Source of the DNA: SAR116 cluster bacterium AG-355-O21
GTDB taxonomy: Bacteria; Pseudomonadota; Alphaproteobacteria; Thalassobaculales; Thalassobaculaceae
Direction of reading: 5' to 3'
DNA: 64,000 bases
Assembly: GCA_003280605.1 (NCBI GenBank)
Contig: QCEM01000006.1
Coordinates: 1 to 64,000, forward strand
Positions within the stretch are counted from its first letter, which is position 1. Every line of letters begins with the position of its first letter. The notes beneath the pieces were generated by a model. It was not told the DNA's origin. It saw only the letters and a list, made by a program, of their open reading frames with translations, and searched no databases. A program made the translations under genes and the position numbers. This document shows positions 23,281-47,694 of the stretch, in pieces.

Positions 23281-23321
23281 CGGTTAAGCGCCCGTCCCGG
23301 TACCGGCGCTTAACCGCTTTT
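23281..23321 (+). terminator. Rho-independent terminator of pckA, overlapping the stop of the convergent DUF4340 gene
   Basis: CGGTTAAGCGCC-cgtcccggtacc-GGCGCTTAACCG perfect 12-bp stem followed by CTTTT. Confidence 0.85.
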
Positions 23322-24392
23322 CGCCGGCATCGCAACACTGGCCGGGGTTTGGCGCAGACGTTCCATGCGCACGGCAGGCAGCAGATACGCCCAACCGTCC
23401 GTCCGTTTGGTGAGGTTTTCCGCCTGGGTTTTGGCGGCCGGGCTAGCATCTTCCAGCGACCTGAAACGGAATCGCGCCCATTCAACCGGTGCCCCCTCGG
23501 CCGTGCGGCGTTGATCATCACGGGCAAAGTCGACCGTCACCTGCAAGCCTTCCTTGGTTTTGTAAATCGCGCTGCCAAGCGCCGGCTGGAAACGCAGTCC
23601 TGTTGCCGATCGCACATCATTGAAAACGTTAAATTCCAGTACCGCCGCCGAATTTTTGGGCAAAAATTCACTGGTCAGGGTGACATCATCGGCGATTTCC
23701 TGGAACCGAAATTTAGTGACCAGATTTTCATCGCGGACAACTGTCAGTCGGTCCCCTTGGCCGTCGATCAAGGCCGCCTCGACAATCTCATCGACGGCAA
23801 TATTGGTAATTTCGCGATTTAACCAATCCGCTGGTCCGGCCCGCAAATCAAGGTCACCCTCGGCCAACCAGCTTTGATTTTCCGCAGCTTTCCGCAAATA
23901 CACACGCGCTGGACCGCCGGCAGGATTGGCCCGCCGCTTACCAATCAAAGCGTCGAACACAGGCTCGCCCATCGGTCCAAGCACCGTCACCTGGCCGGCG
24001 CGCGACCCGGCAATGCTCAGATCGCGCAGGTCAATGCGTTTGAACCGAGCCGGATCTCGGGTTTTGGCCTCGATCACGGTGAGCTGATCAAGGCTCACCA
24101 ACAACCGCCGCAGCAGGTTTTGATCGACCGGGTAGCCATCGCGTTCACGAACGATCCAGGTTTCTGCTTGCCGGCTCAAAGTCGCTGTCTTGAAGGCACT
24201 GCCGGCAGCCCATGAAATGCGCACTTCGCTGATGGCCGCAAATTGGCTACCAAGGTCAGGGAACATTCGGGCGCTTGGCACCTCATCAACAATCATTGCC
24301 CGTCGATCAATTGCCGCCCAGCCGGCGACAAAGACCACGGCCCAGGTCACGGCGAACAGAATGGCCAGATGGCGATTTCCAGTCATGATCAT
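23310..24392 (-). CDS. DUF4340 domain-containing protein (locus A)
   Basis: 360 aa with N-terminal TM; resembles 45907..46941; directly downstream of a GldG-like gene. Confidence 0.85.
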   Translation of the reverse strand: MIMTGNRHLAILFAVTWAVVFVAGWAAIDRRAMIVDEVPSARMFPDLGSQFAAISEVRISWAAGSAFKTATLSRQAETWIVRERDGYPVDQNLLRRLLVSLDQLTVIEAKTRDPARFKRIDLRDLSIAGSRAGQVTVLGPMGEPVFDALIGKRRANPAGGPARVYLRKAAENQSWLAEGDLDLRAGPADWLNREITNIAVDEIVEAALIDGQGDRLTVVRDENLVTKFRFQEIADDVTLTSEFLPKNSAAVLEFNVFNDVRSATGLRFQPALGSAIYKTKEGLQVTVDFARDDQRRTAEGAPVEWARFRFRSLEDASPAAKTQAENLTKRTDGWAYLLPAVRMERLRQTPASVAMPAKSG

Positions 24393-24395: not shown

Positions 24396-26351
24396 CTACT
24401 GGTGCACGGCATGGCGGGCCCGGTTTCGCCGCCGCCAAACAGACAATAACACCGCCAAAGCAGCCAATAACAAAGGCACCGCAGCGATATTTACAAACAA
24501 AAGCTTCTCGCGCAGGTCATCAAGATCTTCGCGCAGCGAACGTTGCACGGCCCGCAGATCGGCCCGCAACGACAACAGATCCCGCTGATAGCGATCAATC
24601 TGTTGGCGGTCTTGATCGCTGATCAGGGCGTTTGCCGTTGACGCCCCCTTGGCGGTTAACTCAGCAAGTTTTTTCTCGGTTTCCGACAACTTATCGCGCA
24701 GCTCTTGCTCTTTGGCGCGATATTTACCCTCGGCGGCACGTTTCAAATTTTCGACCACCGTGAAGGGGCGCTGGGAAAATCCCTGGCCGCGCAAATCCAA
24801 CAACGCGCTGTCACCGGCCAAAGCATCAAGCGCATTGACGATGAAAATGCCATTGCCGGCAACAGGCGTGACAACCTCACGACCAAAGAAGCTGCGGGTA
24901 TTGACCCAGAAACGATCAACCAACAGGTCAACATCCGCAAACACAATCAGGTCGATCTCGCCATTGGCCCGGTGGCCAACATCAACGGCCTGTCCTGCAT
25001 CATTCATGATCGCCGGCAGGCCATCTGGGCGGCCGTCCGGATAGGCGGAGCTCGCCGGCCCGGTTAAGCGTGCCGCAAGCGTTAAATTGCCAACCCCAGG
25101 TTTGAAATCACGCAACAGCCGGCGCGGGTCAACCCGTCCCATGATTTGTCCTGTCGACAATGTTGTCGAACCGGGGCTGGTGCGCACCAAAGGCTCAAAA
25201 ACCGTTGTCGCCGCAGGCAGCGATTCAATCACCGCGGCACTGCCAAGGGCCAAGGTTGAGACCCCCGAAGTAATTGGCGAGCCAGCATTAAAATTCGTCT
25301 CCCGCAAAATCAACCAGGGCAAATACGGCACCGGCGGCGCCCCTTGCGACATTGAAACACGGCGTGCCGTCAAGCGGTCGGCGGCAACTTCCAGCTCATT
25401 GATCTTGATCCCCCAGGCGGCCAAAAGATCGGCCGGGATGCTGTTGGCTTCCACCCCTGCCATGGTTGGGTTGCGACTGTTTTGGACTTCGATCTCAGCA
25501 TAGCTGTCGACAAGTGCGAAAACTTTACCGCCACCAAGCGCGAATTGATCGATTGCATAAAGCGTTTGTGGCGGCAGGTTTTTCGGATGCACCACCATCA
25601 ACACGGTCACATCTTCGGGGATCCGAGTCAGGTCAAGTTCCAACATCTTGGTATCGAAGAAATCTTCGATCTGCGCCATGATCGCAAAAGGCTTCACAGT
25701 TTCCTGTTGCCCTGTCTGCTGGTTGTAGGACGCCCGACCATTGATCGGCAGCGTGCTGATAATGCCGACAACGGTCCGCTCAACATGGCTCAAGCCGTAG
25801 ACGATTTTCGAAATATCATATTCTAAAAACGGCTCACGGTTGGGCTGCAGAAACGCAATCGCTTCCACATCATCGGTCGTGTTGGTCCCGACCAGGCCCA
25901 GAAATACGCCGTCCTCATCGCCACCTAACGGCACCTTTTGCAAGCCGTACGATACGGCCCTGTCCTCGGCTTCGGAAAATGGCGCGGGATCAATGATTTC
26001 AAGACGAATGCGGCCATTGGATAAGCTTGCATATTCTTGCAACAAATCTTTCACCCGCTGGGCATAGCTGCCAATTGCCGGGGCCGCCGCGGCGATGCTG
26101 CTGGAATAGAACAGACGCAGGGTGATCGGCTCGTCAATTTTGTTGATCACGTTTTGGCTGGCCGGTGACAGCGTGTACAAGCGTTGTGCCGTCAAATCCA
26201 AGCGCCAGCTGGTGGACACCGAGGTCGCCAGAAGATTGAGCGCTAAAAACAGCACCAAAACGAGACTCAGCGCGACAGCTGTCCGGCGGCCCAAAGTGGA
26301 CAATAAAGGCGATTGCGGCGTTGTCATCTCAGGCAGCCTTCTCAAGATCAA
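24396..26351 (-). CDS. GldG family protein, ABC-type uncharacterised auxiliary component (locus A)
   Basis: LYTLSPASQNVINKIDEPITLRLFYS, FLEYDISKIVYGLSHVERTVVGIISTLPING, C-terminal coiled coil plus TM. Confidence 0.88.
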   Translation of the reverse strand: MILRRLPEMTTPQSPLLSTLGRRTAVALSLVLVLFLALNLLATSVSTSWRLDLTAQRLYTLSPASQNVINKIDEPITLRLFYSSSIAAAAPAIGSYAQRVKDLLQEYASLSNGRIRLEIIDPAPFSEAEDRAVSYGLQKVPLGGDEDGVFLGLVGTNTTDDVEAIAFLQPNREPFLEYDISKIVYGLSHVERTVVGIISTLPINGRASYNQQTGQQETVKPFAIMAQIEDFFDTKMLELDLTRIPEDVTVLMVVHPKNLPPQTLYAIDQFALGGGKVFALVDSYAEIEVQNSRNPTMAGVEANSIPADLLAAWGIKINELEVAADRLTARRVSMSQGAPPVPYLPWLILRETNFNAGSPITSGVSTLALGSAAVIESLPAATTVFEPLVRTSPGSTTLSTGQIMGRVDPRRLLRDFKPGVGNLTLAARLTGPASSAYPDGRPDGLPAIMNDAGQAVDVGHRANGEIDLIVFADVDLLVDRFWVNTRSFFGREVVTPVAGNGIFIVNALDALAGDSALLDLRGQGFSQRPFTVVENLKRAAEGKYRAKEQELRDKLSETEKKLAELTAKGASTANALISDQDRQQIDRYQRDLLSLRADLRAVQRSLREDLDDLREKLLFVNIAAVPLLLAALAVLLSVWRRRNRARHAVHQ

Positions 26352-27063
26352 GGATCAACGCATTGGCATACAGCGCCAAGCCGATGATTGAGGCGAAATA
26401 GATGAAGTCGCGGAAATCAATGACGCCGCGTTGAATGGCTTGAAAATGGCTCAGAAAACCGAGCCCGTTGACCAGCTCAATCAGCATCGGTGGTGCCCAA
26501 TTGGCAAAAAACTCAATCACAATTGGGCTGCCCGCCAAGGTCAGAACGAAACAGATGGTGGTGGTCAACACAAAGGCGATCACTTGATTTTTGGTGCTCG
26601 CCGAAATCATCGAGCCGATGGCCATGAACGCCCCGGCCATCAAGAAACTGGCCACATAGGAGGCAACGATCACGCCATTGTCGGGATCACCAAGGTAATT
26701 GACGGTTAGCCAGATCGGCGCCGTCAGGGCCAAAGCAATGCCTGTGAACACCCAGGCCGCGAGATATTTACCAAGCACGGCTTGGGTCATGGTGATCGGC
26801 ATGGTCAGCAGTAATTCAATGGATCCCGTGCGCCGCTCCTCTGCCCAAAGTCGCATCGATAATGCCGGCACCAAAAACAGATATAGCCAGGGGTGAAAAC
26901 TGAAAAACGCCTGTAGGTCGGCTTGATCGCGTTCCATAAAGCTGCCGACAAAAAATGTCAGTGTTCCCGCCAGCACCAGAAAGATGATGATGAAAATATA
27001 CGCCAAGGGGGTGGCGAAATAGGCTGCCAACTCGCGCCTAAAAATCAGTCCGATGTTACGCAT
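26329..27063 (-). CDS. ABC transporter permease, GldF/ABC-2 type (locus A)
   Basis: HPWLYLFLVPALSMRLWAEERRTGSIELLLTMPITMTQAVLGKYLAAW; six TM. Confidence 0.9.
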   Translation of the reverse strand: MRNIGLIFRRELAAYFATPLAYIFIIIFLVLAGTLTFFVGSFMERDQADLQAFFSFHPWLYLFLVPALSMRLWAEERRTGSIELLLTMPITMTQAVLGKYLAAWVFTGIALALTAPIWLTVNYLGDPDNGVIVASYVASFLMAGAFMAIGSMISASTKNQVIAFVLTTTICFVLTLAGSPIVIEFFANWAPPMLIELVNGLGFLSHFQAIQRGVIDFRDFIYFASIIGLALYANALILDLEKAA

Positions 27064-29304: not shown

Positions 29305-29326
29305 GGTTCGCTGTTTATCTTGTTCT

Positions 29327-29800
29327 ATGAACCAAAGCAACGACACCCGTTTAAACGCGCCACCGATGGCGCTCGCCCTTGACGCCGCAGAACACGCGGC
29401 AGCACACGGCGACGTGCCTGTTGGTGCGGTCATTATCGACCGTCAACAATCTGCCATTTTGGCCATCACAGGTAACCGGGTTGAGATTGACAACGATCCA
29501 TGCGGCCATGCTGAAATCCTGGCGTTGCGCGCCGCGGCGGCGATTTTAGGCACAGCACGACTGGTCAATTGTGATCTTTACGTCACCCTAGAGCCCTGTG
29601 CGATGTGCGCACAAGCAATCGCGTTGGCGCGGATACGGCGGCTGTATTTCGGAGCTTATGATCCGAAAGGCGGCGGTGTTGAGCATGGCGCCCGTATTTT
29701 TCAGCAAGCGACCTGCCATCACCGTCCGGAAGTTTATGGCGGCATCAAGGAAGCACAGGCAGCGGCATTGCTGAAAAAATTTTTTGCGAGCCTGCGCTGA
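29327..29800 (+). CDS. tadA: tRNA-specific adenosine deaminase / nucleoside deaminase
   Basis: CGHAEILALRAAA, LYVTLEPCAMCAQAI; start MNQSNDTRLNAPPMALAL. Confidence 0.92.
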   Translation: MNQSNDTRLNAPPMALALDAAEHAAAHGDVPVGAVIIDRQQSAILAITGNRVEIDNDPCGHAEILALRAAAAILGTARLVNCDLYVTLEPCAMCAQAIALARIRRLYFGAYDPKGGGVEHGARIFQQATCHHRPEVYGGIKEAQAAALLKKFFASLR

Positions 29801-29904
29801 CCCTAGATGGCGGGCAATATGCGATGTGAAAACGCCGGCAATGCTTGCCTTCCATGAGCGCCCGTCTTATGTCCAGGGGACGGATGAAACAACGGAGCCT
29901 CCCG

Positions 29905-31248: not shown

Positions 31249-31316
31249 CCTGGACCAGGCTATCGGCGCTGCCGAAAAACAGCGCTGAGGAATGCGGAAA
31301 CCTGGGAGAAAATGGC

Positions 31317-33313: not shown

Positions 33314-34283
33314 TTTTTGGCGCCGTAATGGCCTGGCCGCGCAGGTGTTAGCGCCCTGCTCCTGGTTGTTTTCAGCCGCCGGCCAGATACGGTCTGCGAT
33401 TGTCCAACCCTATACCTCGCAGCTACCGGTGATTTGTGTCGGTAACGCCGTTGCCGGCGGCGCCGGGAAAACCCCGGTGGCGATGCAGCTGGCACGGCAA
33501 CTGGCCGCCGCCGGCTGGCGACCGGCGCTGCTGAGCCGCGGCTATGGCGGCAGCGAACCTGGCCCCCATTTGGTGAATATGCACGATGACGCTGCTGCGC
33601 TAGTCGGTGATGAAGCCTTGCTGTTGGCCGGCGTCGCCGACACCTGGGTCGCCCGCGACCGGGCCGCCGGCGCGCGCGCCATCGAGGCCGGCAACTACAA
33701 TTTGATCATCATGGATGACGGCTTACAAAATCCCCAGCTGCAAAAAACCATCGCCCTGCTGGTTGTCGATACCGACCAGGGTTTTGGTAATCAGCGGGTT
33801 TTACCTGCTGGACCGCTGCGCGAGCCGATCGGTGCGGCGCTTGCCCGGGCCGATGCCGTGATCACGTTCGGAGCCGATAACACCGCTTTGGCCGGCACGG
33901 CTTTCGCAACCACTAACCTGCCGTCGTTTTCGGCAAGTCTTGGCAGTCTTAACAGCGCGCAATTCAACCGCCGCCGCTGTCTGGCGTTTGCCGGCATCGG
34001 GCGACCAGAGAAGTTTCGCCAAAGCCTGGCCGCCGCAGGCGCTGAAATTATTGACTTCATCAGCTTCCCTGATCATCACCGCTTTACCGATAACGACACC
34101 CAGCGGTTGCTTGCGCACGCCGCCGATGCCGAGGCGGTTTTGGTGACCACCGCCAAAGACCACGTCCGCTGCCCGGCTGCATTTCGGCAAAAGGTGGAGG
34201 TTCTGCAGGTCGCGCCGGTTTGGAGCGATCCCGAAGCGCTGCTATCCTGGCTACAGTCACGCCTACAAAAATCATCGCCATGA
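33300..34283 (+). CDS. lpxK: Tetraacyldisaccharide 4'-kinase
   Basis: VGNAVAGGAGKTPVAMQLARQL, LLSRGYGGSEPGPHLV, IMDDGLQNPQLQKT. Confidence 0.94.
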   Translation: MKAPDFWRRNGLAAQVLAPCSWLFSAAGQIRSAIVQPYTSQLPVICVGNAVAGGAGKTPVAMQLARQLAAAGWRPALLSRGYGGSEPGPHLVNMHDDAAALVGDEALLLAGVADTWVARDRAAGARAIEAGNYNLIIMDDGLQNPQLQKTIALLVVDTDQGFGNQRVLPAGPLREPIGAALARADAVITFGADNTALAGTAFATTNLPSFSASLGSLNSAQFNRRRCLAFAGIGRPEKFRQSLAAAGAEIIDFISFPDHHRFTDNDTQRLLAHAADAEAVLVTTAKDHVRCPAAFRQKVEVLQVAPVWSDPEALLSWLQSRLQKSSP

Positions 34284-35188
34284 CCAAAAATGCCTCACAT
34301 ACGTCCGTTAGCCGCTGGTTCAGTAATCTGGGTCAGGGGCTGGCCGTGTGGTTGCTGTATTATGGATTTCGGCTGCTGCCGATTGACCTCGCCTCAGCCG
34401 TGGCCGGCGGGATTGCCCGTAATATCGGCCCACTGCTGCCTGTCAGTCGGCGTGCCCGGCGTAATCTGCAGCTGTGCTTTCCGGACTGGTCAAGCGCCCA
34501 GATCAACACCACCGTGCGCGAGGTTTGGGACAATCTTGGCCGCACCGCGGGGGAATTTCCACACCTCGGTAGCTTAGACGCCAGCGGCGGCGACCGGCGT
34601 ATTGAGATCATTGGTCTAGAGCATCTGCAAGCACTGCGGGATGATAATCAGGCCGGTATCGTGGTCTCTGCCCATGTTGGTAATTGGGAGGTTTTGCCGC
34701 GCGTCGCCACCGCAATTGGCTTGCCCATCACCCAGGTTTATCGCGCTTTCAACACGCCCCTTGGCGAGCAGGTCTTGCACCGCGCCCGCGCCAGCGTCCT
34801 GGGTGAAGCCGTGCCGAAAGGCCCACGCGGCGGCCAGCGCTTGCTCGCGGCATTGAAAGCCGGCGGCCATCTTGCGGTGATGATTGATCAAAAACTCAAC
34901 GAAGGTCTTGCGGTGCCGTTTTTTGGCCGCCCGGCAATGACAACACCGATTGTCGCCCGTTTTGCGCTGCGATACCGCTGCCCGGTCATCACCGCCCGCA
35001 GTGAACGCTTGGCGGGGGCGCGTTTCCGAATTACATTTTCAGCACCCATCGACTTACCGGCAAGCGGTGACAATACAGCCGACACTTTAGCTTTGATGAC
35101 GGCAATGAATGACAGCATCGAAGCATGGGTACGGGACCGTCCCGGCCAATGGCTGTGGCTTCATCGCCGCTGGATTGACAAAAACTAA
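34280..35188 (+). CDS. Lipid A biosynthesis acyltransferase (LpxL/HtrB family)
   Basis: GIVVSAHVGNWEVLPRVA, VPFFGRPAMTTPIVARFALRY. Confidence 0.88.
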   Translation: MTKNASHTSVSRWFSNLGQGLAVWLLYYGFRLLPIDLASAVAGGIARNIGPLLPVSRRARRNLQLCFPDWSSAQINTTVREVWDNLGRTAGEFPHLGSLDASGGDRRIEIIGLEHLQALRDDNQAGIVVSAHVGNWEVLPRVATAIGLPITQVYRAFNTPLGEQVLHRARASVLGEAVPKGPRGGQRLLAALKAGGHLAVMIDQKLNEGLAVPFFGRPAMTTPIVARFALRYRCPVITARSERLAGARFRITFSAPIDLPASGDNTADTLALMTAMNDSIEAWVRDRPGQWLWLHRRWIDKN

Positions 35189-35216
35189 CCTCGGCGTCTC
35201 GACGGAGGGCGCAGCC

Positions 35217-36056
35217 ATGACCGAATATGCCTTTAAAAGTGAAAAGTTAAGCCCCAGCATTGGGTTACAAATCTGGGGTGTCGATCCTTCCAAGCCACTG
35301 CCTGATGCAGTGATCGCGGATTTGCGCCGTGCGTGGTTAGACCACTTGGTTATTTTCCTTCGTGACATCGACATCACACCGGCCCAGCAATTGGCCCTTG
35401 CAAAGCAGTTCGGGGAGCCGGCCGAATACCCCTTCGTCAAAGGTATCGACGGTTTTCCAAGCATTACCCCAGTATTAAAACTGCCCGATGAAACGGTGAA
35501 TTTCGGCGGCATCTGGCACACCGACACAGCTTATTTGCCCGAGCCGCCGATGGGCACAATGCTGTATGCACAAGAACTTCCCGAAATTGGCGGCGATACA
35601 CTTTTCGCCAACCAATATCGTGCCTTTGAAGACCTGTCGGAGGGCATGAAGGCGCTGTTGCGGGGCCGCCGCGGCGTCAATGCCTCGGCAAAAGCCGATG
35701 TCACCCGGACTCGCGAAGATCGCATTGCCGACGGCGGCACCAAAAGCGCCGACAAAAGTCTGCAAGCGATCCACCCCGTGGTGCGCACCCACCCGGAAAC
35801 AGGCCGCCAATCGCTATATGTGAATTTCGGCCACACAATTTGCTTTGAGGGCTTAACGGAAGCGGAAAGCCAACCGCTGCTGGACTATCTGTTCAGCCAG
35901 CAAAATCGCCCCGAGATCAGTTGCCGTTTCGCCTGGCAGCCAGGGTCTTTGGCCTTCTGGGATAACCGTGCTTGCCAACATTACCCTGTCAATGATTACC
36001 ACGGCCATAAACGCCTATTGCACCGCATCACCTTAAAGGGCGACACACCGGTTTAA
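35217..36056 (+). CDS. TauD/TfdA family Fe(II)/2-oxoglutarate-dependent dioxygenase
   Basis: WHTDTAYLPEPPMGTMLYAQELPEIGGDTLFANQYRAFEDLS, FWDNRACQHYPVNDYHGHKRLLHRITLKGD. Confidence 0.9.
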   Translation: MTEYAFKSEKLSPSIGLQIWGVDPSKPLPDAVIADLRRAWLDHLVIFLRDIDITPAQQLALAKQFGEPAEYPFVKGIDGFPSITPVLKLPDETVNFGGIWHTDTAYLPEPPMGTMLYAQELPEIGGDTLFANQYRAFEDLSEGMKALLRGRRGVNASAKADVTRTREDRIADGGTKSADKSLQAIHPVVRTHPETGRQSLYVNFGHTICFEGLTEAESQPLLDYLFSQQNRPEISCRFAWQPGSLAFWDNRACQHYPVNDYHGHKRLLHRITLKGDTPV

Positions 36057-36107
36057 CGGTGTCGGATCGGGGTCGGCGAAGCAATGTCTTGGGGCCGGCA
36101 CCGGCAC

Positions 36108-36740
36108 CTAATACAGCCCGCGTTTGGCCATGATGTCGCCCTGGCGTGCAGACTCTTCAGCGGTTAATCCGGCAACCTGATCGGTCAACATATCGCCATA
36201 GCTGGGCAATTGTTGGCGATCAATATGCTTTTGTGGATCCCATAGGCCTGATCGAACAAACGCTTTTGGACAATGCAGAAAAGCTTCTTGAACGGTGATC
36301 AACAGGCCGATTTTCGGAACTTTTCCGCGCATTTCAGAAGCTGCTAACAGGCGTCGATCATCGGTAATTTGGGCGGTGCCATTGATCCGCAATGTTTCAT
36401 CCATGCCAGGCACCAGCACCAATAATCCGATCATTGGATTGCTCAGCAGATTGGCAAAATTATCAAGCCGGTTGTTGCCGACGCGGTCAGGCAGCAACAG
36501 CTGGCGGTCATTAAGCACACGCAAGAAACCGGGCGGGTCGCCGCGCGGCGAAACATCAGCGCCTGTCGGTCCTTGGCTTGACAGGACACAAAACGGTGAC
36601 AGGGCTAAAATCGCCTGACAATGCTGATCAAGATGATCTAAGACCTTGTCGCTGGCCCGGCTCATCGGCGCACGATGCAGCGCTTTCAGCGCCTCAATAT
36701 CGGTAATTACACTCAGATCTGTCGGGACTGACATCCTCAC
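36108..36740 (-). CDS. Pyridoxamine 5'-phosphate oxidase family protein (MSMEG_1061-like FMN-dependent)
   Basis: DVSPRGDPPGFLRVLNDRQLLLPDRVGNNRLDNFANLLSNPMIGLLVLVPG, TLRINGTAQI. Confidence 0.87.
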   Translation of the reverse strand: MRMSVPTDLSVITDIEALKALHRAPMSRASDKVLDHLDQHCQAILALSPFCVLSSQGPTGADVSPRGDPPGFLRVLNDRQLLLPDRVGNNRLDNFANLLSNPMIGLLVLVPGMDETLRINGTAQITDDRRLLAASEMRGKVPKIGLLITVQEAFLHCPKAFVRSGLWDPQKHIDRQQLPSYGDMLTDQVAGLTAEESARQGDIMAKRGLY

Positions 36741-36759
36741 CTTCCTTCATCACACATGC

Positions 36760-37587
36760 TTAGCCCTCGGGCATTGGCGGCACCAATGGTGCCGGATCAA
36801 TACGCCGATCAAACCAATTAATCCGCCAATCAAGATGTGGCCCCGTCGAGCGACCGGTTGAGCCGACGGTGCCAATCTTTTGACCGCGCCGCACGCTCTC
36901 GCCAACCCGCACATCAACTGTCGCCAGATGCAAGAATGCTGACGATAGACCGTGGCCGTGGTCAAGAATAAGGGTCCCGCCGGTATAGTATAAATCGCTT
37001 TCGGCCAACCGCACGACGGCATCCGCCGGGGCGACCACAGGCGTGCCTTTGGGAGCAGCGATATCAATCCCATAATGCGGCTGACGCGGCTTACCGTTTA
37101 AAATCCGCTGGCTGCCGTAAACACCGGAAATGCGGCCGATGGCGGGCCATTGCCAACCGGATAAGAATAACGGCTCGGGGCTGTCGATCTGGCGGGCCGC
37201 TTTGATCCATTTATTCTCCCGCATAATCCGCTCGATGACGGCTGCCGGCGGTGTCACCATTTTGGCCGGCAAGCCGTCAATCCGCTGGACCTGATAACGC
37301 CGCTGCTGAATCGCAAGGCGGCGCTGTTCGAGCCGCCCATCAGCCCAGCGCAGTTGCAAATCTGCCGATGGTTTAGCATCCCGGCTAAAGCCGATAATGA
37401 AGCGCCCGGCAGGGCTGACCCGCAGCAAGCGGCCATCCAGGGTGACCGTGGCACCCGCCGCACCACTGCCAATCAGCAGTCCGCCTTGGCGCAAATCACC
37501 GCGCAGATCAAATGCTGCGGCCCACCCCGGCAGGATGCTTGCGACGGCGGCGATTAAACCCAGCGCGATCCAGGCCGGCCGCATCAA
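36760..37587 (-). CDS. M23 family metallopeptidase (LytM-type)
   Basis: HYGIDIAAPKGTPVVAPADAVVRLAE, GLSSAFLHLATVDVRVGESVRRGQKIGTVGSTGRSTGPHLDWRI. Confidence 0.93.
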   Translation of the reverse strand: MMRPAWIALGLIAAVASILPGWAAAFDLRGDLRQGGLLIGSGAAGATVTLDGRLLRVSPAGRFIIGFSRDAKPSADLQLRWADGRLEQRRLAIQQRRYQVQRIDGLPAKMVTPPAAVIERIMRENKWIKAARQIDSPEPLFLSGWQWPAIGRISGVYGSQRILNGKPRQPHYGIDIAAPKGTPVVAPADAVVRLAESDLYYTGGTLILDHGHGLSSAFLHLATVDVRVGESVRRGQKIGTVGSTGRSTGPHLDWRINWFDRRIDPAPLVPPMPEG

Positions 37588-39152
37588 AAAAGACTTTCCT
37601 GATCATCACCGACCGGTCGCCGCCGGCGTGGCCGGGCGATTGCCGTCGAGGCCGCCGCTTGCCGGCGGCCGGCGCCCTCCATCACAGCGACCCGGATGCC
37701 GTCACGGAACTGTAAGCTGACCTGATCACCTGCCGCCGCCCTATCGGCGCTTAAAACCGGCTTGCCGGCGGCATCACTGACCAGCACAAAGCCTTTATCT
37801 AAAACCCGCTCGAAAGAATGGCTGTCAAGCAGCCGGGCCGTTTGTGCCAAGGTTCGGTCATGGTCCTGAAGGCGGCGATCAAAGGCCTGTTCCAGGCGAT
37901 TTGCCCGATCTGCCAAAGTGGCGGCGAAATCGCGGCATCGGCGGGCGGTGCTATCAATCCGCAGCCGCTCGGCGGAATTCTGAAAACGGACATCGGCAGT
38001 CTGCAGGACTTGCCCGGCGACCGCCTCTAAGCTGCGGCCGGCGGCAGCCAAGCGCGTGCCATCCATTTTAACCCGTTGTAGCGGGCTGATCAGCCGCGCC
38101 GCCAAGTCGCCAAGTTGATAGCGGCGCTGCTCAAACACCCTGTTAATCGCCCGCTCAATGCCGCCGCTGGCATAGTCCAATCGCTGGGCTTTTTGCTCGA
38201 TCATCTGCGCCGGATCGCCAAGGCCGCGCGCCATCCCCTGCAGACGGGTTAGCGCATCTTGTAAGCGGCGATGAACGGCATTAACCAGGCGATTGCCGTC
38301 ATCGTTCACCTGGGCGATTAGATCCAGCCGCACCGGCACCGCCATTTCGGCAGCGGCGGTCGGTGTTGGTGCCCGCCGGTCACTGGCAAAATCAATTAAG
38401 GTGGTATCGGTTTCATGGCCGACGGCGGAAATCATCGGGATCTCACTGGCCGCTGTCGCACGAACCACTTCTTCTTCATTGAAAGCCCACAAATCCTCTA
38501 AGCTGCCGCCGCCACGGGCAACAATTAACAGCTCCGGTCGTGGCACCGCCGCGTCTGTTGCCATGGCGTTAAAGCCGGCAATCGCGGCCGCAATTTGTGT
38601 TTTCGCATGATCCCCTTGAACCAGCACCGGGGCAACCAGAACATGCACTGGGAAGCGATCTTGTAAGCGATGCAAAATATCCCGGATCACAGCCCCTGTG
38701 GGCGAGGTGACAACGCCGATCACCTGCGGCAAAAACGGCAAGGCTTTTTTTCGGGCATCATCGAAAAGGCCTTCGGCAGCAAGCTTGCGGCGGCGGTCTT
38801 CCAGCAGTTTAAGTAACGCCCCCTCGCCGGCGATTTCCATTGTGTCGATGATGATTTGATATTTTGAGCGGCCCGGATAGGTGGTCAGCTTACCGGTGAC
38901 GATCACCTCTAAGCCTTCTTCCGGGGTCACCGCTAAGCGCAATGCTTGACCGCGCCAACAAATGCCGTCTAAGACCGCATTGTCATCCTTCAGGGTCAGA
39001 TAGACATGCCCTGAGGCAGCCCGCGTCGGGCGTGAAATTTCACCCCGCACCCGAACCCGCTCGAACGCTTGCTCAACCGTCCGCTTCAGGGACTGGGCAA
39101 TTTCCGAAACCGTAAATTCCGGCAGATTATTCGGTTCATCCTGCATGCCCAT
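37584..39152 (-). CDS. xseA: Exodeoxyribonuclease VII large subunit
   Basis: FTVSEIAQSLKRTVEQAFERVRVRGEISRPTRAASGHVYLTLKDDNAVLDG, RGGGSLEDLWAFNEEEVVRA. Confidence 0.95.
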   Translation of the reverse strand: MGMQDEPNNLPEFTVSEIAQSLKRTVEQAFERVRVRGEISRPTRAASGHVYLTLKDDNAVLDGICWRGQALRLAVTPEEGLEVIVTGKLTTYPGRSKYQIIIDTMEIAGEGALLKLLEDRRRKLAAEGLFDDARKKALPFLPQVIGVVTSPTGAVIRDILHRLQDRFPVHVLVAPVLVQGDHAKTQIAAAIAGFNAMATDAAVPRPELLIVARGGGSLEDLWAFNEEEVVRATAASEIPMISAVGHETDTTLIDFASDRRAPTPTAAAEMAVPVRLDLIAQVNDDGNRLVNAVHRRLQDALTRLQGMARGLGDPAQMIEQKAQRLDYASGGIERAINRVFEQRRYQLGDLAARLISPLQRVKMDGTRLAAAGRSLEAVAGQVLQTADVRFQNSAERLRIDSTARRCRDFAATLADRANRLEQAFDRRLQDHDRTLAQTARLLDSHSFERVLDKGFVLVSDAAGKPVLSADRAAAGDQVSLQFRDGIRVAVMEGAGRRQAAASTAIARPRRRRPVGDDQESLF

Positions 39153-39217
39153 AACGTTATGCTACAAGCAGGCTCGGTGGAAGGGCTTTAAAGCAGACTG
39201 CAAGGAGCAAACGCTAG

Positions 39218-40495
39218 ATGAAGGTTTTAATCATTGGTGCCGGCGGGCGGGAACATGCGCTGGCCTGGAAGCTGGCGCAGTCGCCAAACGTGACGCAGCT
39301 GCTTGTGGCTCCCGGAAATGCCGGCATGGCTGAGCTTGCGCAGTGCCATGCGGTCGCCGGTGATGATCTTGACGGCTTACTGGCGCTGGCCCAAGCCGAG
39401 GCTGTTGATTTTGTTGTCATCGGCCCCGAACAAGCGCTGGTCGATGGTCTTGTGGATCGCTTAAACGCTGCCGGGATCGCCAGTTTTGGGCCAACGGCCA
39501 GTGCCGCGCAACTGGAAGGCTCGAAAGCCTTCACCAAGGGTTTTTGTGGCCGCCACAACATTCCCACCGCCGCCTACGCCAGCTTCACCGATGGCGATGC
39601 CGCCCGCGACTATGTTCGCCGGCACGGCGCGCCATTGGTCATCAAGGCCGATGGCTTGGCGGCCGGTAAGGGCGTTATCATGGCGGCCACCGACGCCGAA
39701 GCGCTGGCGGCAATTGACAACATCATGGATGCCGGAGCGTTTGGCGCCGCCGGCACTGCCGTCGTGATCGAAGAATGGATGCATGGCGAAGAGGCAAGCT
39801 ATTTCGCCCTCAGTGATGGGCAGAATTTCGTCACCCTCGCATCGGCGCAAGATCACAAACGTGTCGGCGACGGTGATAGCGGCCCGAATACCGGCGGCAT
39901 GGGCGCCTATTCCCCTGCCCCTGTTGTTGACAAAGACATCGAACAGCACATTATCGACCGCATCATTGCCCCGACCGTCGCCGGCATGGCCGCCGAAGGC
40001 AGGCCCTTCAAAGGTGTGCTGTATGCAGGCTTGATGATCACGGCGGACGGCCCAAAACTGATCGAATATAACTGCCGCTTTGGCGACCCGGAATGCCAAG
40101 TGTTGATGGCCCGGCTCAGCAGCGACTTGCTGCCAAGCCTGCTGGCCTGTCATCACGGCAACCTTGACCAGCAACAGCTGCACTGGCGCAGCGACGCTGC
40201 CCTGTTGGTGGTGCTGGCGGCGAAAGGCTATCCCGGGAGCTATCGTAAGCTAACTGAAATGACCGTGCCGGATGATGTGGAGGATGCTCAAACCTTAATT
40301 TTTCACGCCGGCACCCTGCGCCGCGCCGATGGTCAATTGCTGGCCAATGGCGGCCGTGTCTTGGGGGTTACCGGCCTTGGCCCCTCCATCGCCGAGGCGC
40401 AGCAAAAAGCCTATCAAGCGGTTGATAAAATCACCTGGCCCGATGGCTTTTGTCGGCGTGACATCGGTTGGCAGGCGATTGATCGATCCGGCTGA
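39218..40495 (+). CDS. purD: Phosphoribosylamine-glycine ligase
   Basis: MKVLIIGAGGREHALAWKLAQSP, VIKADGLAAGKGVIMA, GVLYAGLMITADGPKLIEYNCRFGDPECQVLM. Confidence 0.96.
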   Translation: MKVLIIGAGGREHALAWKLAQSPNVTQLLVAPGNAGMAELAQCHAVAGDDLDGLLALAQAEAVDFVVIGPEQALVDGLVDRLNAAGIASFGPTASAAQLEGSKAFTKGFCGRHNIPTAAYASFTDGDAARDYVRRHGAPLVIKADGLAAGKGVIMAATDAEALAAIDNIMDAGAFGAAGTAVVIEEWMHGEEASYFALSDGQNFVTLASAQDHKRVGDGDSGPNTGGMGAYSPAPVVDKDIEQHIIDRIIAPTVAGMAAEGRPFKGVLYAGLMITADGPKLIEYNCRFGDPECQVLMARLSSDLLPSLLACHHGNLDQQQLHWRSDAALLVVLAAKGYPGSYRKLTEMTVPDDVEDAQTLIFHAGTLRRADGQLLANGGRVLGVTGLGPSIAEAQQKAYQAVDKITWPDGFCRRDIGWQAIDRSG

Positions 40496-40552
40496 AAAAA
40501 TCCCTATAAAAAATTCTCTCTATGGTAGTTTTTTGGCGCATCATAACCCGCC

Positions 40553-40951
40553 ATGGAGGATGACATGTGGAAGCATGGGCGTTTTTTCTGGAATGAACTG
40601 ATGACACGCGATGCCACCGCCGCCTGCCGGTTTTACGCCGAAATGCTGGGCTGGCAATATCAAAAAATGATAACCCCCGACGGCCATCATTATTGGCTGG
40701 CGCTGGTCGATGAACAGCCGGCCGCCGGCATCATGGACATGACCGCGTCAGAGCATTTGGCCGAGCTGCCGCCGCATTGGTTCAGCTATATCTCGGTCAA
40801 CGATATCGACGACCGACTGACCAACCTGAGCGACCATGGCGGGATTTTACTGCGGCCACCATTCGATGTTGATGACGTTGGCCGTTTTGCCGTGATCCAA
40901 GATCCAAGCGGCGATGTGGTCGGCTGGATCACCCCCAGCAATAACGCTTAG
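40553..40951 (+). CDS. VOC (glyoxalase/bleomycin resistance) family protein
   Basis: GRFFWNELMTRDATAACRFYAEMLGWQY, IQDPSGDVVGWITP. Confidence 0.87.
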   Translation: MEDDMWKHGRFFWNELMTRDATAACRFYAEMLGWQYQKMITPDGHHYWLALVDEQPAAGIMDMTASEHLAELPPHWFSYISVNDIDDRLTNLSDHGGILLRPPFDVDDVGRFAVIQDPSGDVVGWITPSNNA

Positions 40952-41031
40952 ACGGCACCTCGTTGACACTGAATAATCGGCCAGGACTTGTTCCCGGGCA
41001 GTGAGCTTGCTATATCCCCCGCAGGAAGATT

Positions 41032-41069
41032 GATGCGTGATTTGCATTCCCGCTAAGCACGCCTGCATC
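41032..41069 (+). promoter_or_regulatory. Candidate structured ahcY 5' leader with alternative pairings
   Basis: GCGTG (41035) pairs CACGC (41058); GATGC (41032) can pair either GCATT (41044) or GCATC (41065); lies 25 nt before the ahcY ATG. Confidence 0.3.
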
Positions 41070-41094
41070 GTCTTGGTTTTTCCCGGAGCACGCC

Positions 41095-42390
41095 ATGACC
41101 AGTACAACTGACTACAAAGTTGCTGATATTTCACTTGCCGAATGGGGCCGTCGCGAAATCGCGATTGCCGAGACGGAGATGCCCGGCCTGATGGCTTTAC
41201 GCGAAGAATATGGCGATGAAAAGCCGCTTGCGGGGGCGCGCATCGTCGGTTGCTTGCATATGACCATCCAGACAGCTGTGCTGATTGATACCTTGGTTGC
41301 CCTTGGCGCCGAAATTCGCTGGTCGTCCTGCAACATCTATTCCACCCAAGATCATGCGGCGGCGGCGATGGCGGCGGCCGGCATTCCCGTCTTTGCCTGG
41401 AAAGGCGAGACCGAGGAAGAATATGAATGGTGCATTCATCAAACCATCAAAGGCCCCGGCGGCTGGACACCCAATCTGTTGCTTGACGATGGCGGCGACC
41501 TGACCAAAATCATGCATGATGACTACCCTGAGCTGATGGCCGATGTGCGCGGTGTTTCTGAAGAAACCACGACCGGCGTGCATAGGCTTTATGAGATGGC
41601 GACGGCCGGTAGCCTGATGGTGCCTGCCATCAACGTGAACGACAGTGTCACCAAATCAAAATTCGATAATTTATACGGCTGCCGGGAAAGCTTGGTTGAC
41701 GGCATTCGCCGGGCTACCGATGTGATGTTATCCGGCAAGGTTGCCGTTGTTTGCGGTTACGGTGATGTCGGCAAAGGCTCGGCTGCCTCTTTGCGCAATG
41801 GCGGCGCACGCGTGATGGTCACGGAGATCGACCCAATCTGCGCCCTGCAAGCGGCGATGGAAGGGTTTGAAGTTGTCACCATGGAAGATGCCGCCAAAGT
41901 CGCTGACATTTTTGTCACCGCGACCGGTAACCAAGACATTATCACCATCGACCATATGCGGGAAATGAAAGACCGCGCCATCGTCTGTAACATTGGCCAT
42001 TTCGATACCGAGATTCAAATTGAAGCTTTGTCGAACTACCAGTGGGAAGAAGTGAAACCGCAGGTCGATGAAGTTGTTTTCCCGGACGGCAAGCGGCTGT
42101 TGGTGCTGGCCAAAGGACGTTTGGTCAACCTTGGTTGCGCCACCGGCCATCCCAGTTTCGTGATGTCTGCCAGTTTTACCAACCAAACCTTAGCGCAAAT
42201 CGAATTGTGGTTGAATCATGCCGACTATGACAAACAAGTCTATGTCCTACCGAAACGCCTTGATGAAAAAGTCGCCGCCCTGCACCTTGCCAAAATCGGT
42301 GCCAAGCTGACCACGCTCAGCAAAGATCAAGCCGACTATATCGGGGTGCCGACCGCCGGCCCGTTCAAAGGCGAGCAATACCGCTACTAA
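41095..42390 (+). CDS. ahcY: Adenosylhomocysteinase
   Basis: [64 protein letters not shown]-terminus. Confidence 0.96.
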
Positions 42391-42397
42391 TCCACAC

Positions 42398-43225
42398 ATG
42401 AAGGGGCAGCCGATGGGCAACAATGATAGCTTTGGCGAGGGCAAGGTTCTGTACGCGGTCACGGACGGCATCGCCACCGTGACGCTCAACCGACCGGAAA
42501 AGCTTAATGCGCTTGATAAAGCGATGTGGATCGGCCTTGCCGAGGCCATTCAGCAGGCGGACCTGGACCATGATCTGCGCTGCATTATTCTGCGTGGCGC
42601 AGGCGAAAAAGCAATGGGCCCCGGGGCCGATATCGGCGAGTTTGAAACCGCCCGTGCCAATGCCGAACAAGCCACCGAGTATGGCCAAATCATGCATCAC
42701 ACCATGGCCGCTATTCGCGATTGCCGGCACCCTGTTGTGGCCCAGATACATGGCTTATGTGTTGGCGGCGCCTTGGAACTAGCAATCATGTGTGACATCC
42801 GCATCTGCGGTGAAAGTTCCCGCTTTGGGGTGCCCATCAACCGCCTTGGCCTGACCATGGCCTACCCGGAGATTGAGGCCCTGATCAACCTTGTGGGTCG
42901 GTCGACAGCGCTTGAAATCCTTTTTGAAGCACGGGTTTTTGGGGCTGCCGAAGCAAAGGATAAGGGGCTTGTGAACCGCGTTGTCGCCGATGATCAAGTT
43001 GCCGGCGAAGCTGCTGCAACAGCCGCCCGGATCGCTGCCGGCGCACCTTTGGTAAACCGCTGGCACAAGGCCTTTGCCAACCGCGTGATGACTGGCCTGC
43101 ACACACCGCAACCTGTCGGTGAGGCCGATGTGGTTGATAGCTATGCGGCGTTTGACACCGAAGACTTTAATACCGGTTTCCGTGCCTTTTTGGCAAAGTC
43201 GACACCGGTTTTCAAAGGCCGCTGA
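42398..43225 (+). CDS. Enoyl-CoA hydratase/isomerase family protein
   Basis: VTLNRPEKLNALDKAMW, AQIHGLCVGGALELAIMCDIRICGESSRFGVPINRLGL. Confidence 0.88.
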   Translation: MKGQPMGNNDSFGEGKVLYAVTDGIATVTLNRPEKLNALDKAMWIGLAEAIQQADLDHDLRCIILRGAGEKAMGPGADIGEFETARANAEQATEYGQIMHHTMAAIRDCRHPVVAQIHGLCVGGALELAIMCDIRICGESSRFGVPINRLGLTMAYPEIEALINLVGRSTALEILFEARVFGAAEAKDKGLVNRVVADDQVAGEAAATAARIAAGAPLVNRWHKAFANRVMTGLHTPQPVGEADVVDSYAAFDTEDFNTGFRAFLAKSTPVFKGR

Positions 43226-43247
43226 AGGCGCATCCCGGAGTGTGCAG

Positions 43248-43985
43248 ATGATACGCAATATCGCGATCATCACATGGCGTGAACTGGTCGCCTATCTCAC
43301 CCAGCCTGTTGCTTATGTGTTCATCATGGCATTCACGGTATTGGCCGCCGGTTTAACCTTTTACGCCGGCGGTTTTCTAGACCGGGGCAGTGCCGAGTTG
43401 TCGGTATTTTTTCAGTTTCATCCCTGGCTTTATCTGGTGCTGATGCCGGCCATTGGCATGCGTCTTTGGGCGGAAGAATATCGCGGCGGGACAATTGAAC
43501 TGCTGCTGACCTTGCCGCTTAGTACCAGCCATGCCGTGGTCGGCAAGTTTTTGGCCGCCTGGATTTTTGCCGCCCTGGCCCTCAGCTTGACCTTTCCGAT
43601 TTGGTTAACCGTCAGCCTGCTGGGACAGCCTGATCATGGTGTCATTGCCAGCGGTTATCTCGGCAGTTGGTTGCTGGCCGGTGGCTTTTTAGCCGTCAGT
43701 GCGGCGGCATCGGCGGCAACCCACAACCAAGTGATCGCCTTTATTTTTGGCATCACACTGTGCTTTTTGCTGCTCGCCGGCGGCGCTGAGATGACGCAAT
43801 CATTGCTTAGAAACTGGGTTGACCCGGCGATTGCCGAAGGGCTTGCAAATATCAATGCCGTGGCACGCTTTCGCAGCTTTGTTGACGGTCTGATTGACCT
43901 GCGTGCAATTATTTTCTTTGTCACTTTGATCGCCAGTGGGCTTTTCGCAAGCGCGGCCTTGGTGCGCGTCAGAACGGGCTCATGA
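43248..43985 (+). CDS. ABC transporter permease, GldF/ABC-2 type (locus B)
   Basis: HPWLYLVLMPAIGMRLWAEEYRGGTIELLLTLPLSTSHAVVGKFLAAW, very similar to 26329..27063; start MIRNIAIITWREL. Confidence 0.9.
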   Translation: MIRNIAIITWRELVAYLTQPVAYVFIMAFTVLAAGLTFYAGGFLDRGSAELSVFFQFHPWLYLVLMPAIGMRLWAEEYRGGTIELLLTLPLSTSHAVVGKFLAAWIFAALALSLTFPIWLTVSLLGQPDHGVIASGYLGSWLLAGGFLAVSAAASAATHNQVIAFIFGITLCFLLLAGGAEMTQSLLRNWVDPAIAEGLANINAVARFRSFVDGLIDLRAIIFFVTLIASGLFASAALVRVRTGS

Positions 43986-45910
43986 TGACCACGGCAGATC
44001 CCAACCCAGCATCGCTCATGACCCGACTTGGCCGCCGCGGGCGGGCCGCTATCGGGGTTTTATTGGCGGCGATCTTTTTCCTGGCGATCAATATCTGGGC
44101 TGAAATCAGCTTGCCAAATCAGCGCTTGGATACCACTGCCGAGCAGCTCTACACACTGACCACCGGCACCAAAGATGTTTTGGCCTCCATCGATGAGCCA
44201 GTGACCCTTCGGCTGGTGCGCAGTCGCAGTCTTGACGGCCTTGGCCCGCAAACCGTTAAACACGCCCAACGGGTGGCGGAGATGTTGGATCTTTATCGCC
44301 GCCTGGCAAACGGTAAGCTGCGCATTGAAACCGTCAATGTGGATCCATTTTCTGCCGCCGAAGACCTGGCCGAGGCCGCTAGAATCAGCAGTCAGACCAA
44401 CACTGCCGGGGCGCGGTTTTATCTTGGCCTCATCGGCACCAATTCGACCGACGGATTTGAGACCATTGACCGTTTATCGCCAACCCGGGCACGCTTCCTA
44501 GAATATGATTTAAGCCGCCTCATCCATGACCTTGCAACCCCGCGCAAGCCGGTGGTTGGGGTTTTAGGTGAGCTGCCGATTTTTGGTGACCGAACGCGCG
44601 GCCTTAAGGCTTTCACGGTTCTGGAAGGGATTCGCGGCTTCTTTGAGATTCGGCCGATCATGGGCAAGGTCAGCGCCATTGACGACGACATCGACATCAT
44701 CATGCTGGCGCAGGCGGTAACGCTCGACCCACAGACACTCTATGCGATCGATCAATTTGTGATGCGCGGTGGCGCTATTTTGGCATTTGTCGATCCCTTA
44801 AGCGAAGCCTTGCCGCGACCGCCGGACGGGGCCGCCATCAATCGTAACGCGGTGCCGACCATCTCGCCTCTCCTGTGGCATTGGGGGGCGGCTGTCAGCG
44901 CCACCCATGTGGCCGCAGATCGGCAGGCTGCGATTAAGGTCAGCGTCACCCAAAATGGTCGCCAAGTTGTCACCGATTATGTGGCCTGGGGAGAATATTC
45001 AGACCGCCGGCTTGCCGCCACCGAGACCATTACCGGCAATTTACGCCGCCTGCAGTTGCGCAGCAGTGGGATCATTTCAGCGACCGGCAATCCGGCCTTG
45101 ACCATCCATCCGCTGATCAGCACCTCGGCAGATTCGATGCGCTTGGCAATTTCCGCGATCGAGCCGGTGCCAAACCCGATTCAATTATTGGCCGACTTTA
45201 AAGCCACAGGCGCGCCATTGGTATTGGCGGCCCGCTTGAGCGGGATTGTGACATCGGCCTATCCCGACGGTCCGCCGGCGGAAATTGCCGATCCGCAAAT
45301 TCGCGGCCGCCATCGCGCAACGGCCAGCAGCCCGCTGGCCATGGTGCTGGTCGCCGACAGTGATTTATTAAGTGATCAAACCTGGTTAGAGACGCGTGCC
45401 GACGGCGGCAAAGTGCCTTTTGCGAATAACGCCGATTTCGTGATCAACGCCTTAGATCAGCTCAGCGGCGGTGCCAAGATGATGGACCTGCGCGGTCGCG
45501 GGGTCGGTGAGCGACGGCTGACCGTGCTTGACGATAGGAACCGCCAAGCTGAGACCGCAAGCCGCGCCCGGGAAGCTGAATTTAGCCAGGCCATCGACCA
45601 GCTCCGCAGCAAGATTGAAAGCCGCACCAGTAGCCGCCGTGGCGGCGCGATGAGTGTCGAGGATGCCTTAGAGATTGAGACCTTGCGGAGTGAAATCCTG
45701 ACCCTTCGCCAGCAATTACGGGCCCGTCAATTCGACGTCCAAAAACAAGTCCGTGATTTGACTAAGCAGATTCAAGCCGCCAATATCTGGGCGGTGCCCC
45801 TCAGCTTAGGCGTTATTTTGCTGGTCCTGACAACCTGGCGGTGGCTTGGCCGGCGGCGGGCGCTGAAGCTCACCGGCACAGCGGTGCAAACAGACGGGCG
45901 GCCAGTATGA
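43982..45910 (+). CDS. GldG family protein (locus B)
   Basis: LYTLTTGTKDVLASIDEPVTLRLVRS, FLEYDLSRLIHDL, C-terminal coiled coil plus TM, as in locus A; 4-bp start/stop overlap with the permease. Confidence 0.88.
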   Translation: MMTTADPNPASLMTRLGRRGRAAIGVLLAAIFFLAINIWAEISLPNQRLDTTAEQLYTLTTGTKDVLASIDEPVTLRLVRSRSLDGLGPQTVKHAQRVAEMLDLYRRLANGKLRIETVNVDPFSAAEDLAEAARISSQTNTAGARFYLGLIGTNSTDGFETIDRLSPTRARFLEYDLSRLIHDLATPRKPVVGVLGELPIFGDRTRGLKAFTVLEGIRGFFEIRPIMGKVSAIDDDIDIIMLAQAVTLDPQTLYAIDQFVMRGGAILAFVDPLSEALPRPPDGAAINRNAVPTISPLLWHWGAAVSATHVAADRQAAIKVSVTQNGRQVVTDYVAWGEYSDRRLAATETITGNLRRLQLRSSGIISATGNPALTIHPLISTSADSMRLAISAIEPVPNPIQLLADFKATGAPLVLAARLSGIVTSAYPDGPPAEIADPQIRGRHRATASSPLAMVLVADSDLLSDQTWLETRADGGKVPFANNADFVINALDQLSGGAKMMDLRGRGVGERRLTVLDDRNRQAETASRAREAEFSQAIDQLRSKIESRTSSRRGGAMSVEDALEIETLRSEILTLRQQLRARQFDVQKQVRDLTKQIQAANIWAVPLSLGVILLVLTTWRWLGRRRALKLTGTAVQTDGRPV

Positions 45911-46941
45911 GTGTGCGCAGCTTTGCCATTTGCCTGATGATTACATTGCTGGCCGTCCTCGGCGCCCTGATGGCGATTTTCGGTCATGATAATAATCCCC
46001 TTGATCAGGAGATTGGCCGCCCTGTCTTCACGCAGTTGGCGGCAAACCCACAAGCCGTCAAACGCATTGAGTTGCGCCACCACAAAGGCGGGTTTTCATT
46101 TATTCGTGACCAGCAGTCATGGCGAAGTGAGGATAAATTCAGTTTCCCGGCCTCCGCCCGGCGGGTTGACGGCCTGCTGAACGACCTGGCCGGTTTGCGG
46201 TTAGCCGAGCCAAAAACCCGCAAGCCGAAACGCTATGCCCGCATTGGTGTCGAGCCGATTGGCCAAGCTGGCGCCCGTGGCGGCCATCTGCGCCTGTATG
46301 ATACGAACGGCGATCTCATTGCCGACGCCATTATCGGCGATCGGATTAGCCGGCCAACCGGCGACGCAAAGGCCGGAACCTTTGTGCGCTTAACCGGCCA
46401 AGCGCAAGCGTGGCTGGCCAGCGGCGCAATTACCTTGCCGTTGACGCTTCGGCCTTGGCTGAACGCCGCCGTGATTGATATGACCCCGGCAACGGTGGCA
46501 GCGGTCGATATTATCGATCTCGATGGCCGGCGCATGGTCAGTCGCAAAACACCGATGCATAGCTTCACCGTAGCGGCCGGCGGCGGTCGTGAAACCGCAT
46601 TCCCCGCCGCCCCGCAAGTGGTCGAGCAACTTCTGACCGCCCTTCAGCCATTGCGCTTCGATGATGTGCGGCCGCGCCAAGCGGGGCCGGCGTTTGTGGC
46701 CACGGCAGGCGTCAAAGTTCGGCGCTTCGATGGTGTGGTGATCGAGATTGAGATCGCCGATGAAAAGGATATCGCCTGGATACGGCTGAACGCTGTGCCG
46801 CCTGCCGGCAATGTGTCAGCGGCGATATCGGCAGAAGTCGCGGCGCTGAACAACCGTCTCAAGCCATGGACATATCAGATTGCCGATTGGATTAACGATC
46901 GCTTGACGGAACCGCTTGACCGCCTTCGCCAGCAGCCGTAG
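45907..46941 (+). CDS. DUF4340 domain-containing protein (locus B)
   Basis: MSVRSFAICLMITLLAVLGALMAIFG TM start; KRIELRHHKGGFSFIRDQQSWR; 4-bp overlap with GldG gene. Confidence 0.83.
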   Translation: MSVRSFAICLMITLLAVLGALMAIFGHDNNPLDQEIGRPVFTQLAANPQAVKRIELRHHKGGFSFIRDQQSWRSEDKFSFPASARRVDGLLNDLAGLRLAEPKTRKPKRYARIGVEPIGQAGARGGHLRLYDTNGDLIADAIIGDRISRPTGDAKAGTFVRLTGQAQAWLASGAITLPLTLRPWLNAAVIDMTPATVAAVDIIDLDGRRMVSRKTPMHSFTVAAGGGRETAFPAAPQVVEQLLTALQPLRFDDVRPRQAGPAFVATAGVKVRRFDGVVIEIEIADEKDIAWIRLNAVPPAGNVSAAISAEVAALNNRLKPWTYQIADWINDRLTEPLDRLRQQP

Positions 46942-47560
46942 GGACCGGCGGCTTTGCCAGTTCCCGCCAACTCTGTACCGAAATTTCGGTTGCCCCACGC
47001 AAGAAAAGCGCTGCCATCATGACCGCCACAACCAAATCCGGCCAGGAACTGCCACTGAGCCAGACCGCGCCGGCCGCAGCAATCACGGCAAGGTTCCCGA
47101 TGGCATCATTCCGGCTACAAATCCAAACCGAGCGGACATTCGCATCGCCGGCGCGAAAGCGAAACAACAACAGGGCGCAGACAATATTTGCCAGCAACGC
47201 CATGGCCCCGACCCAGGTCATGACCAAGGCCACCGGCTGGCCCATGTAGATCATATTATAGATCGCCCATGCCAAAACCCACAGCCCGACAAGCCCCAAG
47301 CTCAGGGCTTTCAATAACGCCGCCCAAGAGCGCCAAGCCGGCGGCTTGGAAATGACATATAAACTAATCGCGTAGGTCACTGAATCCGCCAGAAAATCAA
47401 GCGCATCGGCCTGCAAAGCGACCGATTGACCATGAACACCAGCGACCATCTCGACCAAAAACATTGCTGCATTAATGGTGATAACGATCCACAAAACACG
47501 TTTGTAAGATACTGACATGCCGGCGAAAACGGCCGCCCTACAACCACAATCTTTATCCAT
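46892..47560 (-). CDS. Cation diffusion facilitator-like transporter
   Basis: ADALDFLADSVTYAISL and SRNDAIGNLAVIAAA motifs; about six TM; start MDKDCGCRAAVFAGMSVSYKR. Confidence 0.82.
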   Translation of the reverse strand: MDKDCGCRAAVFAGMSVSYKRVLWIVITINAAMFLVEMVAGVHGQSVALQADALDFLADSVTYAISLYVISKPPAWRSWAALLKALSLGLVGLWVLAWAIYNMIYMGQPVALVMTWVGAMALLANIVCALLLFRFRAGDANVRSVWICSRNDAIGNLAVIAAAGAVWLSGSSWPDLVVAVMMAALFLRGATEISVQSWRELAKPPVPTAAGEGGQAVPSSDR

Positions 47561-47694
47561 ACCACCCCACCATCGTAACGTGTATTTTAGCACATAAAGT
47601 AGCCCTGATACAACGCCTGGCGGGTGGCTGTTAACTGACCTATACTGGTGCCATATGTATCACGCTGGAGTATCTTTTTGCCGTGTCACCTATG

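Follow-up and report, generated by a model that had tools for sequence, protein, structure and literature searches.

A Gld-like ABC operon without an ATPase gene and its ATPase-bearing paralogue in a marine alphaproteobacterium

Two Gld-like ABC loci lie in the window (the whole stretch of 64,000 nucleotides that was analysed) of a marine alphaproteobacterial genome, and comparison of the sequences indicates that the ATPase gene of one of them, locus B, was lost from most of the closely related copies. On the simplest explanation, the ATPase encoded by the other locus, locus A, probably powers both the A and the B machine. In a wider form, we lean somewhat more cautiously towards the view that dedicated ATPases were lost separately and that a single GldA-type ATPase now powers two envelope machines which diverged long ago, or even mixed dimers of A and B permeases.

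Locus B (43248-46941, forward strand) consists of three genes, none of which encodes an ATPase, and follows the gene order of the proteobacterial operon, namely an ABC-2 permease, then a PF09822 protein and then a PF14238 protein (Table 1). Both gene junctions are 4-bp ATGA overlaps. The permease matches the Pfam family ABC2_membrane_4 with 30.5 bits (cut-off 27), and its score against TIGR03518 (144.1 bits) is below the GldF equivalog cut-off of 288.5. The GldG-like protein has a predicted N-terminal membrane helix, DUF7088 and ABC_transp_aux (GIFT) domains, and a C-terminal coiled coil followed by a membrane helix; it scores 70 bits against TIGR03521, below the cut-off of 389.85. A single N-terminal membrane helix is predicted for the DUF4340 protein. 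The place expected for an ATPase gene is occupied by an enoyl-CoA hydratase (ECH) family gene, whose stop at 43225 leaves a gap of 22 bp to the permease ATG, and the order ahcY-ECH-permease is repeated in a genus-mate (L151). Neither an ATPase gene nor a remnant of one was found in the 3 kb upstream of locus B. The architecture of locus B, its ECH neighbour and the ATPase at the head of locus A (27781-23310, reverse strand; order ATPase-permease-GldG-DUF4340) had been described in the first-pass annotation, and coordinates, overlaps and profile matches agree with that description. At the other end of locus B, a cation-efflux family gene (46892-47593, reverse strand) is convergent with the operon and shares 50 bp with the 3' end of the DUF4340 gene.

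Table 1. Genes of locus B, locus A and the upstream neighbour of locus B, with profile matches
Feature	Coordinates	Strand	Match
Enoyl-CoA hydratase (ECH) family gene	42398..43225	+	PF00378 169 bits
Locus B permease, ABC-2 / GldF-like, 245 aa	43248..43985	+	PF12730 and PF12679, above cut-off
Locus B GldG-like protein, 642 aa	43982..45910	+	PF09822 ABC_transp_aux 161 bits, PF23357 DUF7088 61 bits
Locus B DUF4340 protein, 344 aa	45907..46941	+	PF14238 39 bits (cut-off 25)
Locus A short GldA-type ATPase, 241 aa	27056..27781	-	TIGR03522 about 276 bits
Locus A permease	26329..27063	-	Pfam match; member of family-wide clade
Locus A GldG-like protein	24396..26327	-	PF09822 182 bits
Locus A DUF4340 protein	23310..24392	-	PF14238 23.7 bits alone, 25.6 bits with neighbouring frame matches (cut-off 25)

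Elsewhere, an operon of four genes, its ATPase gene included, is the normal state. The GldG-like family occurs in about half of the good genomes (133 of 282) in a sample of 290 alphaproteobacterial genomes, and 59 of the 60 loci extracted from this sample have an adjacent ATPase; at the sole locus without one, the contig breaks off 130 bp from the permease, so that the count for uncut loci is 59 of 59. Three genomes with two copies (G079, G168 and G316) have an adjacent ATPase at both. Among 80 loci of a species-level genome collection, 75 carry a whole or partial ATPase gene, three are cut, and the two that are uncut and lack the gene are copies of locus B themselves (L033 and L042, from genera g1 and g10).

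The relatives of locus B were sampled in 36 genomes of the host family together with these 80 loci, and a phylogenetic tree was built on permease and GldG sequences. Fourteen B copies form one clade (bootstrap 99, aLRT 98), which is distributed over five genera of the host family (Thalassobaculaceae-type; g1, g8, g9, g10 and g12) and has alphaproteobacteria outside that family as its nearest rows in the tree. A separate clade, which spans the family, holds the locus A copies and, as its only other member, a duplicate record of G013 (L096, with an identical sequence in the tree). The two loci had been called copies of one system; they do share three protein families, but since they fall into different old clades, the term "second copy" is not to be taken as a recent duplication. 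The A and B permeases are 48% identical, the GldG-like proteins 35%, and the DUF4340 proteins 25% over 212 residues, a resemblance which, by sequence, is far beyond chance, but both copies are old. Frequent occurrence of locus B in genomes lacking locus A, which the first-pass annotation had named as evidence against a shared ATPase, was not observed: clade B was found in one family only, and part or all of locus A was seen in 12 of its 14 carriers. In two of these (G001 and G024) only the DUF4340 gene of locus A was seen, at a contig end. Locus A was not found in the 70% complete genome G010 or the 59% complete genome G034, and the contig of the latter stops about 2 kb short of the place that locus A has in the relative G022.

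The distribution of ATPase genes differs between the two clades. An ATPase gene adjoins each of the 28 locus A copies, its product being 241-250 aa long where complete (three are cut by contig ends), whereas ten uncut members of clade B, from g1, g8, g10 and g12, have neither an ATPase gene nor a remnant of one; the B copies of G024 and G027 are cut and stand outside this count. In both g9 genomes, a gene for an ATPase of 318 aa lies directly upstream of the B permease gene, overlapping or abutting it. This g9 ATPase groups with the ATPase of locus L040 (aLRT 93, flagged as a long-branch join), and L040 stands beside clade B in the permease and GldG tree as well, which fits a native partner retained in g9. 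A single clade of ATPase-less B members was rejected (AU p=0.0165); the ATPase must have come or gone at least twice, and none of 200 bootstrap trees could do with one change. Therefore, either two losses or one loss and one regain (in g9) would have occurred. ATPase pseudogenes were searched for upstream of the ATPase-less copies and none was found. The genes upstream of locus B are a tRNA-Ala(GGC) gene in g8 and g12, unrelated genes in g10, and ahcY plus the ECH gene in g1; a tadA-like gene, as read from its sequence, follows locus B in g8, g9, g10 and g12. Among the Gld-like ATPases compared (L034-L112, L147 and L149), a long form of about 280-331 aa with a C-terminal extension and a short form of about 237-265 aa can be distinguished. 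The locus A ATPase is of the short form, and the g9 locus B ATPase is of the long form, with a C-terminal extension of about 80 aa.

The ATPases of the host genome, which is 84% complete and contains tens of ABC ATPase matches, were ranked against GldA. The locus A ATPase came first, followed by an ATPase on contig C67 (161 bits), one on contig C15 (133 bits) and all others at 113 bits or less. The score of the locus A ATPase is under the TIGR03522 equivalog cut-off of 402.6, yet it is by far the top match in the genome. With the locus A ATPase as query (self-match 518 bits in G000), the ATPase-less genomes with an intact locus A each gave one strong match, at about 336-358 bits, and the next match was at most 128 bits; lower scores occurred only where the sequence was cut by a contig end. 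Two of the ATPase-less genomes, G008 and G014, are more than 90% complete. Meanwhile, the g9 genomes, which kept an ATPase at locus B, have two strong GldA-grade matches. A dedicated GldA-type ATPase elsewhere was thus found neither in the 84% complete host genome nor in the ATPase-less relatives, which lends partial support to the suggestion in the first-pass annotation that locus B shares the locus A ATPase.

It is unlikely that locus B is driven by a more distant ABC-2-type ATPase from another part of the genome. The number of ABC ATPases in the genome would leave room for such a partner, and the second-best match to GldA, on C67, has no ABC-2 permease gene that could be seen beside it on its 9-kb contig; but the C67 family is found in genera with locus A only (g2, g3, g5 and g6) and was not found in the B carriers g8, g9 and g12. 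The C15 ATPase adjoins an ABC-2-type permease of its own, judged from the ORF sequence, and all remaining matches score low against GldA. We therefore reject or disfavour the C67 ATPase, by its distribution over genera, and the C15 ATPase, by its own permease, as partners of locus B. The C67 gene itself (G000:C67:6721-7680, L155; match 6742-7599) lies beside a polA-like gene and is conserved in several genera of the family.

A sharing of the ATPase could also take another form, in which the A and B permeases form mixed dimers on one ATPase dimer and locus B, instead of being a machine in itself, contributes a regulatory or specialised half to the A machine. Dimers are the working form of ABC-2 permeases, and A and B are 57-72% identical in the coupling segment, compared with 44-54% in the remainder of the permease. 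In addition, the two loci are close to each other, 15.5 kb apart in the window (27781 to 43248) and about 15-22 kb apart across g1, g8 and g12, with differing genes in between (window; G008:C4, G022:C9 and G027:C24). However, locus B has complete GldG and DUF4340 genes of its own and formerly had an ATPase as well, which is what a separate machine would show, and the two permeases are just 48% identical. Mixed dimers thus seem to us rather doubtful, slightly more so than a distant ATPase. The linkage of A and B where the ATPase would be shared is suggestive, with few independent cases; in G018, a g9 genome which kept its own B ATPase, A and B are at least about 50 kb apart.

We looked for a functional hint in the genes between A and B and dropped this line, as the interval genes vary by genus. 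In the window, the interval includes genes at 31317-35188 that read, from sequence, like DUF374, waaA, lpxK and a lipid A acyltransferase; the corresponding intervals of G008 and G022 showed no such genes. Two possible marks of a partner change in the permease were likewise discarded: the B coupling segment of the ATPase-less genomes has no diagnostic sites to indicate that it converged on A, and an apparent F-to-L change in the coupling segment of g1 and g8 does not track the ATPase type among outgroups.

That locus B, its ATPase gene gone without a remnant, now works without ATP hydrolysis (e.g. as a passive scaffold) or is decaying is highly improbable: the reading frames of the ATPase-less copies are intact, the dN/dS of 0.08-0.21 for their three genes in g8 and g12 indicates maintenance by purifying selection, and the coupling motif MRLWAEE..G..E.L..LP is well conserved, all of which speaks against decay as well as against a release from an ATPase.

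According to the preferred reading, a shared locus A ATPase, locus B would supply the membrane and periplasmic components of a Gld-like ABC machine which formerly had its own ATPase, the gene for which was presumably lost in the host lineage. The short GldA-type ATPase from locus A would most likely dock on both permeases, A and B. Binding and hydrolysis of ATP would set the B permease in motion, and this movement may be handed on to the membrane-anchored GldG-like protein and the DUF4340 protein in the periplasm, or be coupled to transport by them. Since the lost native ATPase was long (318 aa) and that of locus A is short (241 aa), a fit with the B permease cannot be taken for granted, and the coupling segment gave no positive signal for it. 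We infer the sharing of the ATPase, as we do the topology of the proteins and any role in the handling of envelope glycans or glycolipids.

In an AlphaFold2 model of the locus B GldG-like protein (pLDDT 86), a region of mixed alpha/beta structure lies between an N-terminal helix and a long helical C-terminal part. The best PDB fold match of the model is a eukaryotic oligosaccharyltransferase chain (6c26_B, which we take to be Wbp1; probability 1.00, E 1.4e-6), a partial-length match with a TM-score of 0.24 by query, and further matches are ThuA-like proteins and beta-galactosidases. Together with the PF09822 score, the modelled fold is consistent with a GIFT-domain protein. The GIFT domain owes its name to GldG and IFT52 and is present in Wbp1, and sugar binding has been proposed for it (PMC7226087). 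The model of the DUF4340 protein (pLDDT 92) gave no convincing match in a PDB fold search (TM at most 0.27), and sequence searches of the PDB with GldG and DUF4340 returned no relatives. The permease profile weakly matched CcmB among PDB sequences.

All components of locus B belong to known families, and an ATPase gene separated from GldFG is not new. In Flavobacterium johnsoniae, which provided the founding example, gldA (Fjoh_1516) is unlinked from gldF and gldG (Fjoh_2722 and Fjoh_2721), and both gldF and gldG are required for GldA localisation (PMC9127263). The GldA-GldF-GldG system (TIGR03522/03518/03521) thus resembles locus B in its homologous permease and GldG and in the separate ATPase gene; it differs in that all three components studied here score far under the Gld equivalog cut-offs, that a DUF4340 partner is present, and that the gene for the presumed ATPase belongs to a second, complete operon, locus A. 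As no component is a Gld equivalog by the curated cut-offs, no gliding role is to be assumed, and a link to gliding or type IX secretion is not expected in the host lineage. The four-gene proteobacterial operon (GldA-like ATPase, ABC-2 permease, ABC_transp_aux and DUF4340; e.g. locus A) has the same three families in the same order, whereas locus B lacks the ATPase gene present at every uncut alphaproteobacterial locus sampled. Among other ABC systems, the MsmK ATPase of streptococci energises several ABC transporters (PMC8546688) and is similar as one ATPase for several permeases, but it belongs to an unrelated importer family, and its sharing is experimental, that of locus B deduced. The eukaryotic GIFT-domain proteins (IFT52, and Wbp1/OST48 of oligosaccharyltransferase) resemble the locus B GldG-like protein through the model's fold match and differ in that this match is partial-length.

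What appears to be a new variant is a Gld-type operon minus its own ATPase, with a paralogous ATPase-bearing operon surviving in the same genome; no description of such a pair was found in the literature searched, which covered few subscription journals. Locus B had been rated the best candidate for an undescribed system, which is too strong, as the module with its ATPase occurs in about half of alphaproteobacterial genomes and an unlinked gldA is already present in F. johnsoniae; the part of that rating which holds is that no function of the module in Proteobacteria was found in the literature searched, including that on DUF4340 and PA4037-PA4040. Outside Proteobacteria, the DUF4340 domain has been reported as essential in Verrucomicrobium spinosum (PMC12283558). 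For a module so widespread and without a described function in that literature, a clade that lost the motor of one of its two versions offers a clean handle on what the module does. It also points to an ATPase and a permease of ABC-2 type being genetically uncouplable outside Bacteroidota, and if the sharing is true, the family would be a natural experiment in motor swapping between ABC-2-type machines. The only plasmid match to the GldG family was a gene (34% identical) on a 425-kb plasmid of Pseudomonas aeruginosa (CP109682.1:65659-67323).
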